Part shown: positions 33,426 to 39,404 of the stretch, piece by piece
How positions within the stretch are numbered: position 1 is the stretch's first letter
Layout of the letters: each line of letters begins with the position of its first letter
Source of the DNA: Roseimaritima multifibrata
Lineage (GTDB): Bacteria; Planctomycetota; Planctomycetia; Pirellulales; Pirellulaceae
NCBI RefSeq assembly: GCF_007741495.1
Contig: NZ_CP036262.1
Location: forward strand, 2,604,001-2,668,000
Direction: 5' to 3'
Length of the DNA: 64,000 bases
Program-made: the position numbers and the translations under genes
The notes under the pieces: model-generated
Told to the model about the DNA's origin: nothing
Database searches by the model: none
The model's input: only the letters and a program-made list of their open reading frames with translations

Positions 33426-34559
33426 TCACATCTCTTTGGGAGCGGCGAGCGCGCGGTGGCGTTCCAGCAGTTCCAGGAACGTCCCGGCAAGAATGGCTTC
33501 TCGGGCTTGGTGCATCAACCGCTGGTAATAGGTCAGATTGTGAATTGTCAGCAGAATCGGCCCCAGCATTTCGCCGGTGACAAATAGGTGCCTCAGGTAG
33601 GCCCGGCTGTGTTGGCAGGCGGGGCAGGGGCATGAATCCTCTAGCGGGCGTGGATCGTCCTTGTGGATGGCGTTCCGCAGTTTCAGCGGACCTTCGTCGG
33701 TAAAGGCAAACGCATTTCGTCCATTTCGCGTCGGCATGACGCAATCGAACAGGTCGACCCCTTCGGCGATCGCTTCCAGCATGTCGATCGGCCGTCCGAC
33801 GCCCATCAGGTACCGAGGTTTGTCCTCTGGCAAGTGTGGGCAAGTTGCCTTCACGATCCGGTACATTTCCGGGGGCGGTTCGCCGACACTTAGTCCACCG
33901 ATGGCAAATCCATCAAACGGATGGGCTGCGAGGTCTCGGGCACATTGGGCCCGAATGGTCTCGTTCAGGCCTCCTTGGACGATCGCAAATCGAGCCTGAT
34001 CGGATCGGGTCGCCGCGTTTAGCGAGCGAACGGCCCAGCGTACCGATCGCTCGGTCGCATCGATCACCGCTTCATCGGAGGCGGGCAACGCAATCACATG
34101 GTCTAGGACCATAGCGATATCGCTCCCCAGGGATTCCTGGATCTCGACCGAATACTCGGGCGTCAGGTCAATCTTTCGACCGTCGATATGGCTGTGAAAG
34201 ACCGCCGATCGCTCGTCGATCTTATTCAGCTTCGATAGCGAAAAGACTTGAAATCCACCGCTGTCGGTCAGGATAGGACCATCCCAGTTCATAAACTGGT
34301 GCAGTCCGCCCATCTTGCGAATCAGTTCGTGGCCCGGACGCAGCGCCAAATGGTAGGTATTCCCTAGAATCATTTGGGCTGTAACGTCAGGCAGCGTTGC
34401 GGTGGTCTCACGCAGTTGTGCTGCGGTGACCCCTTTGACGGTTGCCTGCGTACCGACCGGCATAAACGTCGGCGTTTGCACAACCCCGTGTGGGGTTGTG
34501 AACGTACCGCGTCTGGCCGCCGTTTGGCTATCGCGTGCGAGGCACTTGTACTCAGTCAC
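33426..34559 (-). CDS. tgt: Queuine tRNA-ribosyltransferase (tRNA-guanine transglycosylase)
   Basis: Exchanges guanine 34 for preQ1 in tRNAs with GUN anticodons, a step of queuosine synthesis. The catalytic regions are clear: [18 protein letters not shown] with the Asp acid/base, [40 protein letters not shown] with the nucleophilic Asp, and the zinc site [17 protein letters not shown]. Length (377 aa) is normal. Its start codon overlaps by 8 bp the end of the TPR/alpha-CTD gene, so translation is probably coupled. No queA or que genes are visible nearby. Confidence 0.96.
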
Positions 34560-35877
34560 CGCGAAGCTTCAGGCTCATTTCCGTCAGCTTTTCGCGGACT
34601 TCGGTAAGGCTGGTCACACCGAAGTTCTTGCACTCAAGCATTTCGTCGCCCGTCTTGCGGACCAGTTCACCAATGGTGTTCAGGCCAAGGCGGACCATGC
34701 ATTTACGGGCTCGAACCGAAAGGTTCAGGTCCGAGATCGGACGGTCAAGCAAAGCTTGTTCGTCGGCCGACATGTGCGAAGTATCGATCGGTGGATCGGG
34801 TGACTTTTTCTCGTGAGCAAACTGACCCAGGGAAAGTCCCTTGCCGGTCAGCATTTCGCGAATTTCGTACAGGCTGGTTTCGCCAAAGTTCTTACTGGCC
34901 AGCAGCTCGGCTTCGGAAGTTCGGGTCAGATCCCCAAGGGTATCGACGCCCATCTTCTGCAAGCAGTTACGGCTACGGACGGAAAGTTCGAAGTTAGCGA
35001 CCGGCAGGTTCAGTACTTGAGCCAAGCGATCGTTGCGACGTTGGGTTTCTTCGTCGTACAGGACGTTGCCCTGCGCCGAAGCGTCTTTCATGTAGAGGGT
35101 TGCTTGGGGGTGATCTGGATAGCATTCCAGAATTCGCCGGTAGCAGACCTGAGCCCGATCGAACTGATTTCGATCTTCGTACAGGATTCCCAGGTTGATC
35201 AAGACACCAACACCGGTAGGAAATCCGGCCGCGGCTCGCTCGTACATCGCGATCGCTTCGTCATCGTTTCCGTTGCGATCGTTTTCCAAGGCCAACCCAA
35301 ACAATGCTCCGGCATGACCTTCGTCAATCTGGAGGGCTCGTTCGTAGTGGTTGATCGCTTCCGCTTTTTTGTCACCGATTGCGGCGACGGTCGCGGCGCG
35401 TTGGTATTGGTATTCAGCGGTCTGTTCGATGGGGCCGAACATATCGTCCAGGATGTTCATCGAACCTTCGAGGTCACGCATGTACCGTTTCGTTTCCGCA
35501 ACGGCAAGTTTGCACTGATCCTCGTCGTAACCCGCTTTGCGGGCCGCTTCGTATTGGGTGAGGGCCACGTCATATTCGCCCAGTTCGAAAGCGCAGCGTC
35601 CCAGGTAAAACTGGGCAAGTGCTCCACCATCGGAACTGCTAAGCGTCTCGCGAGCCGCTTTGAAGCGACCCAGGAGAAGTTGACAGACACCAAATTTGGT
35701 CTGAGTCGCCGGACTACGGTCGGTTTCCTGTTCCATTTGGTTCACTGCATCGCGCAGTTCACCAAAATGAATGAAATCCGAGGCGATAGCCGTGCGGATG
35801 TTGGCGATCTCTTGGGGACCAAAAGAAGTGTTCGACAGGACGACTTCTTTTAAATCAAGAACTTCGGCTTCAGCCAT
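34552..35877 (-). CDS. TPR protein with two C-terminal RNA polymerase alpha-CTD domains
   Basis: Residues of about 35-265 form TPR-like helix pairs ([39 protein letters not shown]). Residues 290-350 and 378-439 are two copies of the alpha-CTD fold: [20 protein letters not shown] and [20 protein letters not shown], each followed by a helix-hairpin-helix segment [14 protein letters not shown] or [14 protein letters not shown]. These match the E. coli alpha-CTD (VRSANCLKAE..., LGKKSLTEIKDVL) closely. The protein lacks any alpha N-terminal domain, so it is not RpoA. It may bind DNA or regulators, or compete with RNA polymerase. It sits upstream of tgt with an 8-bp overlap, downstream of a tRNA gene. 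Confidence 0.88.
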
Positions 35878-35938: not shown

Positions 35939-36012
35939 AGCCAGCGGTGGGATTTGAACCCACAACCCTCGCATTACGAATGCGATGCTCTGCCAATTGA
36001 AGCTACGCTGGC
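35939..36012 (-). tRNA. tRNA-Thr (anticodon CGT)
   Basis: Reading the minus strand from 36012 gives an acceptor arm gccagcg paired with cgctggc, a D arm gctt...gagc with a TTGG loop, anticodon stem tcgca/tgcga with the loop ttcgtaa (anticodon CGT, reading ACG threonine codons), variable loop and a T arm gtggg-ttcaaat-cccac. The discriminator base is T (U) and CCA is not encoded. It is 62 bp upstream of the TPR/alpha-CTD gene and in the same direction. Confidence 0.95.
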
Positions 36013-36206: not shown

Positions 36207-38006
36207 ATGTCTGCATGGATGCCGACACCCTCCACTAGCCACTCTCGATCTCGTCAGGATGGGGGGCGACGTTGCCTTCCGCTGGTTTCCCATGCCTGGT
36301 CGGCAGTTGCGATTGCATGCATGGTGTTTACGCTCAGCGGATGCTCCTTGTTTAGAGGGGACAGTGAAAAGGATGGTGCCCTTGAGGATTTGCTGGTCGT
36401 TCCAGACCCCCCCGAAAAAATCGGTGAAGCGGCCCTGCCGTACGGATTGACCTACGCTCGCGTCCAAGGGGTGGGAGCCGTCAAGGGACTGAACCGGACC
36501 GGAGCTCCCGCGTTGCCCTCGGAGTACCGTGACCGTTTGATCGCGGAAATGAAAACTCACAATGTCGCAGACCCCGACGGGTACCTCGAATCGGATCTCA
36601 CCGCATTGGTGATCACCGAGGCGATCATGTCGCCGGGCGTTAAACGTGGCGATCGCTTGGATATTTTAGTGACGGTTCCTTCCCGGTCGGAAGTGAAGAG
36701 CCTTCAAGGTGGTTGGTTGATGCCTTCACGTTTGCAGGAAATGAGACGATTGGATGTGGTTCGCTCTAGCAATGTTGCGGTGACAGGAACCGGCCCGGTA
36801 TTGGTCCGTAGCTTGCACGACAACAGCGGCGAAGAAATGCAACGAACGGCAACGATCTTAGGCGGAGGCGTCGCCCAGGTGGACCGTCCGGTCGGCTTGG
36901 TCATTCGCCCTCAATATCAACATGCTTTGCTTTCCAGAGAATTCGCCAAAGTCATTAACCAACGATTTTACTTCTTTGACGGATCTTCGCGGCGAGGCAT
37001 CGCGACCGCTCGCGAGGATGATTTCATTGAACTGGACGTGTTGCCCCGCTACGAAGAAAACGTCCACCGCCTGATCGCCGTGGTTCGTGCAATGAATGTG
37101 CAACCGCACGCGGGCGGTCTGCGAGGGCAGTTGGAATCGCTTGATAAAAAATTGAAAGAACCGACGACCGCAGCCGATGCGGCACTCAGCTTGGAAGCGA
37201 TTGGTTCCGACTCCGTCCCGCTGTTGGTCGAAGCCCTGAAGACACCGGATGATGAAATTCGATTCTATGCAGCGGAAGCCCTGGCATACTTGGATGAAGC
37301 GGTAGCGATCGAACCGCTTGCGGAACTGGCCCGAACCGAATCGGCATTCCGTTACCCAGCCCTCAAAGCCCTGCAGGGAATGCCGCAGAATGCCGCGGCA
37401 CAGGCACTGCGTGGCTTGATGAATGATCCAAACAACGAAGTCCGCTACGGAGCCTTTACGGCACTCCGAAAACGTCCCGATTCGGCCGATCTGGTCGGAG
37501 GCCAACGATTCGGCGATGGCTATTACCTGCACACCATTCCCTCGACCGCCGACCCTCTGGTCGCTGTCGGGCTGGGGCATCGGCCCGAAATTGTAATGTT
37601 CGGCAGCAGTTTCCCAATTGAATTGACCGAATCGGTTATCAGCAAAGGGGGAATCGTGATGCGAGACGATGGGGATGGAAAAATCAGTCTCAGTCGATTC
37701 CGCGTCGGCGAAGAGGACCAAACGACAAGCGTTCCTGCCAACATCCCAGCGGTATGTGCCGGGTTGTCCGCGATGGGGGCTGGGTACAGCGACTGTGTCG
37801 ACGTTCTTAGTTCACTCAAGGCGAACCACGCGCTCCCCGCTCGTTTCGCATTCGATCCTAGCCCGCGGGCGTTGCGAACTTACTATCGCAACGAGGAGAA
37901 CTTTATCGATCCAAGTGAACCGCCGTCTCTCGCTCCGCACGACATCACGCCGCCAGTGCCAAAAGAAAAGACCTTCTTCGAAAAAATGTCTTGGTGGAGT
38001 GAATAG
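36207..38006 (+). CDS. FlgI-like lipoprotein with inserted HEAT repeats
   Basis: A lipoprotein (lipobox LSGC, Cys about residue 46) of 599 aa. Residues of about 80-240 match the flagellar P-ring protein FlgI: VQGVGAVKGLNRTGAP, the pair ALVITEAIMSPGVKRGDRLD and LQGGWLMPSRL, then GGGVAQVDRPVGLVI. A HEAT-repeat segment follows at about 320-425 (SVPLLVEALKTPDDEIRFYA, AFRYPALKALQGM). The C-terminal part returns to strands (HRPEIVMFGSSFPIELTES). FlgI normally is a soluble periplasmic protein without HEAT repeats or a lipid anchor, and no flagellar genes are near, so the role may be a P-ring-like envelope ring in another machine. ATG at 36207 is used; 36177 is possible. Confidence 0.82.
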   Translation: MSAWMPTPSTSHSRSRQDGGRRCLPLVSHAWSAVAIACMVFTLSGCSLFRGDSEKDGALEDLLVVPDPPEKIGEAALPYGLTYARVQGVGAVKGLNRTGAPALPSEYRDRLIAEMKTHNVADPDGYLESDLTALVITEAIMSPGVKRGDRLDILVTVPSRSEVKSLQGGWLMPSRLQEMRRLDVVRSSNVAVTGTGPVLVRSLHDNSGEEMQRTATILGGGVAQVDRPVGLVIRPQYQHALLSREFAKVINQRFYFFDGSSRRGIATAREDDFIELDVLPRYEENVHRLIAVVRAMNVQPHAGGLRGQLESLDKKLKEPTTAADAALSLEAIGSDSVPLLVEALKTPDDEIRFYAAEALAYLDEAVAIEPLAELARTESAFRYPALKALQGMPQNAAAQALRGLMNDPNNEVRYGAFTALRKRPDSADLVGGQRFGDGYYLHTIPSTADPLVAVGLGHRPEIVMFGSSFPIELTESVISKGGIVMRDDGDGKISLSRFRVGEEDQTTSVPANIPAVCAGLSAMGAGYSDCVDVLSSLKANHALPARFAFDPSPRALRTYYRNEENFIDPSEPPSLAPHDITPPVPKEKTFFEKMSWWSE

Positions 38007-38055: not shown

Positions 38056-38130
38056 TCTTAGCGGATCGGCGCGAGCCGACCGGCAAGTACGTAATGATTT
38101 CGGGGCGGTGGCCGGACGGCTTGGGACCGT
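38056..38130. repeat. Diverged REP-like pair before array B
   Basis: ttcttagcggatcggcgcga with agccgaccggc near 38056-38088, and ggccggacggcttgggaccg near 38109-38129, resemble the REP core with changes. Together they can form a loose hairpin downstream of the FlgI-like gene. Confidence 0.5.
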
Positions 38131-38148
38131 GCGATTTAAAAATGAAGA

Positions 38149-38504
38149 AAGTCTGGCTCCCCTCGCCCCTAAGCGAGCTCTTTGGTGTGGACGAAATCTC
38201 TGGTAGTTCGTTGCGTGATCTCTGCCTCTTTGTTTGATTTAGTGGAGCTTGCTTGGGGGAGAGGGGCGGGGGGGGGGGGGGAGATTTCCAGGCGGCGATA
38301 TTGCAGCGAAGACGCGGTGAAAGCCTCGGATTTTAAGCGGTTGTGCCACGCCTTGCCCAACGCTGTCGGCCCCCTCTCCCCCAGCCCCTCTCCCCCAAAA
38401 CAAGCTTTTGAATCGACCTTAATTGAATTAGCTGGCGAACCGTTGATCCAGTATCAAACCTGTTTTAAGCGAGCTTGTTTTGAGGGCGAGGGGAGCCAGC
38501 CTGT
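38149..38504. mobile_element. MITE-like repeat element, copy 4 (array B)
   Basis: Same element as at 21436, with left end aagtctggctcccctcgccc. In place of ctgggggaga it has a run of G (around 38266-38281), a likely slippage change. The right end reads gagccagcctgtcttc as in copies 2 and 5. Terminal repeats are otherwise kept. Confidence 0.75.
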
Positions 38505-38556
38505 CTTCATATATAGATCTCATCGCCTCTCGGTACGTGCGATTTCTTAATAAAGA

Positions 38557-38912
38557 AAGTCTGGCTCCCCTCGCCCCTAAGCGAGCTCTTTGGTGCGGAA
38601 GAAATCTCTGCTAGCTCATTGTGTGATCTCTGCCTCTTTGTTTGATTTAGTGGAGCTTGCTTGGGGGAGAGGGGCTGGGGGAGAGGGGGAGATTTCCAGG
38701 CGGCGATATTGCAGCGAAGACGCGGTGAAAGCCTCGGATTTTAAGCGGTTGTGCCACGCCTTGCCCAACGCTGTCGGCCCCCTCTCCCCCAGCCCCTCTC
38801 CCCCAAAACAAGCCTTTGGATCGTACTTAATTGAATTAGCTGGCGAACCGTTGATCCAGTATCAAACCTGTTTTAAGCGAGCTTGTTTTGAGGGCGAGGG
38901 GAGCCAGCCTGT
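38557..38912. mobile_element. MITE-like repeat element, copy 5 (array B)
   Basis: Starts exactly 408 bp after copy 4 and shares its linker (tctcatcgcctctcggtacg, then gtgcgatttcttaataaag), so element plus linker form one tandem unit. The internal part shares gacgcggtgaaagcctcgg with copy 4. Confidence 0.75.
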
Positions 38913-38964
38913 CTTCATATATAGATCTCATCGCCTCTCGGTACGTGCGATTTCTTAATAAAGA

Positions 38965-39317
38965 AAGTCTGGCTCCCCTCGCCCCTAAGCGAGCTCTTTG
39001 GTGCGGAAGAAATCTCTGCTAGTTCGTTGCGTGATCTCTGCCTCTTTGTTTGATTTAGTGGAGCTTGCTTGGGGGAGAGGGGCTGGGGGAGAGGGGGAGA
39101 TTTCCAGTCGGCGATTTTGCAGCGAAGACGCGGTGAACGCCTCGAATTTCAAGCGATTATGCCACGCCTTGCCCAGCGCTGTCGGCCCCTCTCCCCCAGC
39201 CCCTCTCCCCCAAAACAAGCTTTTGAATCGACCTTAATTGAATTAGCTGGCGAACCGTTGATCCAGTATCAAACCTGTTTTAAGCGAGCTTGTTTTGAGG
39301 GCGAGGGGAGCCAGACT
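38965..39317. mobile_element. MITE-like repeat element, copy 6 (array B)
   Basis: Starts 408 bp after copy 5. It carries its own variants (tttccagtcggcgattttgc, cgcctcgaatttcaagcg). The right end is gagccagactgtcttc, followed by tataaatcgcacgcc, the sequence that also follows copy 3 in array A. A trailing REP half (gcgccgttccgctagga) ends at about 39361. Confidence 0.75.
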
Positions 39318-39404
39318 GTCTTCGTTTATAAATCGCACGCCATTGCGCCGTTCCGCTAGGAATTGGAGTTGCGATCGGCCTCCATTCGCTGCTGACGTCA
39401 CTGC

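Follow-up and report, generated by a model that had tools for sequence, protein, structure and literature searches.

The FlgI-HEAT protein (FH) encoded in the window, the whole 64,000-nucleotide stretch of Roseimaritima multifibrata DNA analysed here, is very probably a paralogue of the flagellar P-ring protein FlgI that functions independently of the flagellum and carries an inserted module of HEAT repeats. FlgI builds a ring of 26 subunits within the peptidoglycan layer. In these planctomycetes, a component of the flagellar ring seems to have taken on a new function in the envelope.

The FH gene spans positions 36207-38006 on the forward strand and encodes a protein of 599 aa, which matches the family profile over its full length (612 bits). 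The protein starts with a predicted signal peptide and lipobox (LSGC; 36207-36344), in which the lipidation cysteine, Cys46 (36342-36344), follows a hydrophobic stretch. Residues 80-301 (36444-37109, forward strand) match the Pfam FlgI family PF02119 at positions 10-228 of its 343-residue profile (57.3 bits, cut-off 25.3; E = 1.6e-15) and correspond to the IRU and OR domains of FlgI. They are followed by a HEAT-repeat insert (residues 310-425; 37134-37481, forward strand), in which Pfam detects HEAT_2 (E = 4.5e-14) and HEAT (E = 4.1e-6) repeats over residues ~318-425. Residues ~457-551 (37575-37859, forward strand), starting with RPEIVMFG, correspond to the IRL domain. Searches of solved structures lead from the N-terminal part to flagellar P-ring proteins and from the middle to alphaRep/HEAT proteins. 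The NCBIfam FlgI subfamily model gives window FH 51.2 bits, below its cut-off of 300. A sequence-only reading of the window had described a FlgI-like protein with HEAT repeats and a lipobox, and both descriptions are borne out by these matches and by conservation of the cysteine in the family. It had also confined the likeness to FlgI to the N-terminal half; this holds for residues 80-301, but the C-terminal domain of FlgI is present as well, past the HEAT repeats.

The domain assignment comes from a profile-profile comparison of 62 aligned FH relatives with 11 checked canonical FlgI sequences from planctomycetes. The N-terminal part of FH aligns with canonical FlgI with an hhalign probability of 99.9 (E = 3.9e-33). 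Residues ~457-551 align with the C-terminal domain of FlgI with a score of 44.5 (probability 86.7), compared with at most 18.7 in 100 column shuffles. Because this domain matches past the HEAT repeats, the HEAT unit is an insertion within an otherwise complete FlgI. In FlgI numbering, the insertion point lies at about residues 229-237, where the OR domain of FlgI (residues 1-11 and 160-230) borders on the IRL domain (residues 231-346; PMC8298488). As judged from the profiles, FH retains all three FlgI domains (IRU, OR, and IRL), with the HEAT module at the OR/IRL boundary. The HEAT part is conserved equally well as the N-terminal FlgI part, with mean pairwise identities of 0.355 and 0.340, respectively, and 0.269 for the C-terminal part. 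The insert is of the same repeat type as HEAT/PBS-lyase-type repeat proteins (PF13646) and designed alphaReps, but in FH the repeats are embedded in an exported FlgI scaffold. The P-ring fold was assessed through profile comparison only; AlphaFold2 models of residues 70-584 and 80-310, computed from window FH and one extra sequence (from locus L033), have pLDDT values of 46.6 and 37.0 and are of low confidence except in the HEAT part.

FH is predicted to be exported and, in most members, lipid-anchored. The lipobox cysteine is aligned in 53 of the 62 members, and in none of these 53 is it followed by Asp. Twin-arginine-type signals with a lipobox occur in three members. The cysteine is lacking in all six FH sequences examined from one family of the class, f99.

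The window genome also encodes a second, canonical FlgI (210.7 bits; G000:C1:5631291-5632307), which lies 3 Mb from FH and is adjoined by flgH (5632471-5632959). The sequence-only reading had suggested looking for such a protein, and held that its proposal would fall if FH were the only FlgI of the genome and lay in the flagellar regulon. Neither is the case: a normal FlgI is encoded elsewhere, and FH occurs in 53 genomes of the class that lack FlgH. The genes tested near FH in the window include no flagellar gene, as that reading had stated; they encode tgt, NfeD, a TPR/RNA-polymerase-alpha-CTD protein, inositol monophosphatase, DUF1501, and PSCyt/PSD1 proteins.

The distribution of FH differs from that of the flagellum. 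Of the 119 genomes of the class, 118 contain FH by the family profile, in exactly one copy each; in G367 a contig end truncates the copy, and G375, which lacks FH, is a 94%-complete draft. Over 140 family sequences were located in all. A scan of genome contigs with a single FH protein as the query gave one locus. In the same 119 genomes, FlgH is found in 65, flagellin in 67, and FHIPEP, the FlhA-type export gate, in 103. FH is present in genomes without FHIPEP, FlgH, or flagellin, and because it is found in 118 of 119 genomes, 53 of them without flgH and 15 without the FlhA-type gate, FH is not a flagellar part. Overall, FH is homologous to FlgI (PF02119; structures 7CLR, 7BGL, and 9IYC) over IRU and OR (1.6e-15; 3.9e-33) and over IRL, and both proteins are exported, FH by prediction. 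FH differs from FlgI in its lipid anchor, in the HEAT module at the OR/IRL boundary, in its occurrence in genomes without FlgH or flagellin, and in the linkage of its gene to smc rather than to flagellar genes. The FlgI residues that contact the rod are Lys63 and Lys95 (PMC8298488). These positions are mostly not basic in FH (basic at the Lys63 position in 15 of 62 members and at the Lys95 position in 3 of 62), but canonical planctomycete FlgI is often without Lys there too, which makes this a weak distinction. Support for FH as a FlgI paralogue outside the flagellum is strong.

Beyond the class, a set of 294 genomes from the phylum yields FH-type matches in nine families; in one of the nine, f33, the matches are fragments scattered over separate contigs. 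Other families outside the class in the same set, several of them with near-complete genomes, have canonical FlgI only. A tree of the FlgI part, in which five canonical rows were mis-extracted and which was used for FH branch order only, tracks the family groupings, suggesting that FH has been inherited by vertical descent. In the genus g7 there is a third PF02119 protein, distinct from both FH and canonical FlgI, in an open frame of ~590-670 aa (for example, G181:C1:1793579-1794406 and G342:C1:1864283-1865128).

The linkage of FH to smc is new and strong. In most loci, the gene directly downstream of FH encodes a protein of 1,190-1,410 aa with SMC_N and SMC_hinge domains, and smc, which encodes the chromosome condensin, is the conserved neighbour in 49 of the 62 20-kb FH neighbourhoods examined. 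Of these 49 linked loci, in and out of the class, 48 have a gap of 3-290 bp between the two genes; in the remaining locus (L058), they are 2.8 kb apart. FH lies directly upstream of smc, on the same strand, in 76 of the 87 genomes of the class that bear smc. The 11 exceptions include true relocations in the window genome and in G167, each of which is a single contig; in the others, FH and smc lie on different contigs, and several of these may be assembly breaks. Outside the class, the pair is present in 16 of 18 neighbourhoods, and besides smc, no gene common to the loci of the class remains alongside FH.

In several members of the class, the cluster goes on with a gene for an HTH_17/response-regulator protein, moaC, and a polyprenyl synthetase gene. 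The small protein with an HTH_17 domain and a response-regulator receiver domain is encoded beside the FH-smc cluster in many members (for example, L042:14735-15445 and L102:12082-12822), and it is a possible DNA-binding partner. In the family f99 (for example, loci L100-L105), FH and the HTH-REC, moaC, and polyprenyl-synthetase genes are kept, minus smc. An SMC hinge was found in 0 of the 17 f99 genomes tested, and there was no SMC match in them either, so smc seems to have been dropped from the middle of the cluster. Since FH is retained in f99 without SMC, FH is independent of SMC.

In the window genome, FH has been relocated away from smc. The relocated gene is flanked upstream by a tRNA-Thr (CGT) gene on the reverse strand (35939-36012) and downstream by three tandem copies of a repeat with a 408-bp period (38128-39337); both belong to the context of the relocated gene and lie outside the system. 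Further upstream, at 34552-35877 on the reverse strand, a gene next to tgt encodes a protein that combines many TPR units with two RNA-polymerase-alpha C-terminal domains.

We propose the following explanation. FH would be exported through its signal peptide and usually held at the membrane by a lipid on the lipobox cysteine (Cys46 in the window). Its FlgI domains, which make the ring contacts in FlgI (PMC8298488), would most likely still assemble into an annular or patch-like scaffold in the envelope; the chance that FH still oligomerises is, in our estimate, only a little short of even, and the HEAT insert is a point against it, as it could spoil the ring geometry. The scaffold is perhaps attached to peptidoglycan through the OR domain, which in FlgI resembles OmpA-type domains and may contact peptidoglycan (PMC8298488). 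FH would no longer grip the flagellar rod, and the HEAT module is perhaps a docking face for another envelope protein. In these bacteria without FtsZ, FH may act in cell division and the segregation of chromosomes, or be co-expressed with these processes. According to PMC10632474, all Planctomycetes have lost ftsZ, and it is this loss, together with the standing position of FH before smc, that points to such a role; we put it forward tentatively. Direct contact between FH and SMC is unlikely because SMC is cytoplasmic and FH is exported. Taken as a whole, the explanation (a flagellum-free P-ring paralogue in the envelope with HEAT docking, perhaps serving division or segregation) is our best one, and its probability is somewhat below one half. 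A more specific version, in which FH forms a P-ring-derived, lipid-anchored annulus for division or chromosome passage, co-expressed with SMC as the envelope side of an FtsZ-less apparatus, is unlikely.

The main rival is that FH is a lipoprotein for general maintenance of the envelope and takes no part in segregation or division; it might, for instance, be a scaffold bound to peptidoglycan or to the outer membrane. The link to smc would then be only historical or regulatory, through a shared promoter or growth-coupled expression. The persistence of FH where smc has been lost, and where FH has moved off smc, is consistent with this reading, as is the sharing of the cluster in several members of the class with moaC and polyprenyl synthetase, which have no obvious functional tie to it. 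However, outside the class, FH and smc are the only pair kept amid a shuffled neighbourhood, and moaC and polyprenyl synthetase are not kept, which counts against this rival. We regard this rival as a serious possibility, to be given well under an even chance.

The sequence-only reading had proposed that FH forms a ring or bushing in a secretion or pilus-like machine. FlgI makes annuli, its OR domain is similar to domain N3 of secretins (PMC8298488), and FH is anchored in the envelope, all of which would suit such a machine. However, the genes conserved around FH include none identified as a secretion or pilus gene, the conserved neighbour being smc (49 of 62), and FH is kept in 15 genomes without FHIPEP. 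The part of the proposal that places FH outside the flagellum is supported, given the 53 genomes of the class without FlgH, and the part that assigns it to secretion or a pilus gains no support; we consider the latter improbable. We also rejected a flagellar-type export system without a filament: a cluster of this kind exists in one f99 genome, yet FH also occurs without FHIPEP. The cluster, at L124 (G301:C132:145000-164999), encodes FHIPEP, FlhB, FliR, FliQ, a FliG-like protein, an SRP54-type GTPase, and a sigma factor; no flagellin, FlgH, or canonical FlgI was detected in that genome despite the export cluster. The remaining f99 genomes also carry FHIPEP.

Two further readings have very little probability left. 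In one, FH stays in the cytoplasm and binds SMC or a kleisin through its HEAT repeats, as do the HEAT subunits of condensin (HAWKs); FH resembles SMC-ScpAB condensin/HAWKs in being encoded directly before smc and in carrying HEAT repeats. It differs from them in being exported, as indicated by a signal peptide with a lipobox in 53 of 62 members, twin-arginine-type signals in three, and a FlgI fold that is periplasmic; in its short HEAT unit (~115 aa) of PBS-lyase/alphaRep-type repeats; in keeping the FlgI scaffold; and in surviving where SMC has been lost. We rejected a cytoplasmic condensin-type subunit on account of the export signals and the independence from SMC. In the other, equally remote, FH serves planctomycete flagella as an accessory part or is left over from a flagellum that has been lost. 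Its homology to FlgI and the flagellar-type export cluster kept by at least one flagellin-less genome could speak for this reading, but it is already largely refuted by the distribution (118 of 119 genomes for FH versus 65 of 119 for FlgH, with FH in genomes without FHIPEP, FlgH, or flagellin), and the sequence is well conserved and its neighbour is smc, not a flagellar gene.

In the literature searched, no description of the FH family was found. It is an open question how Planctomycetota, which lack FtsZ and whose peptidoglycan genes are dispensable, divide and segregate their chromosomes (PMC10632474). FH is a concrete, testable candidate for the envelope side of these processes: it is single-copy, nearly class-wide, predicted to be exported, encoded directly before smc, and descended from a flagellar ring. 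If the proposed explanation is true, FH would offer a clear example of a P-ring protein whose existence is independent of any flagellum.
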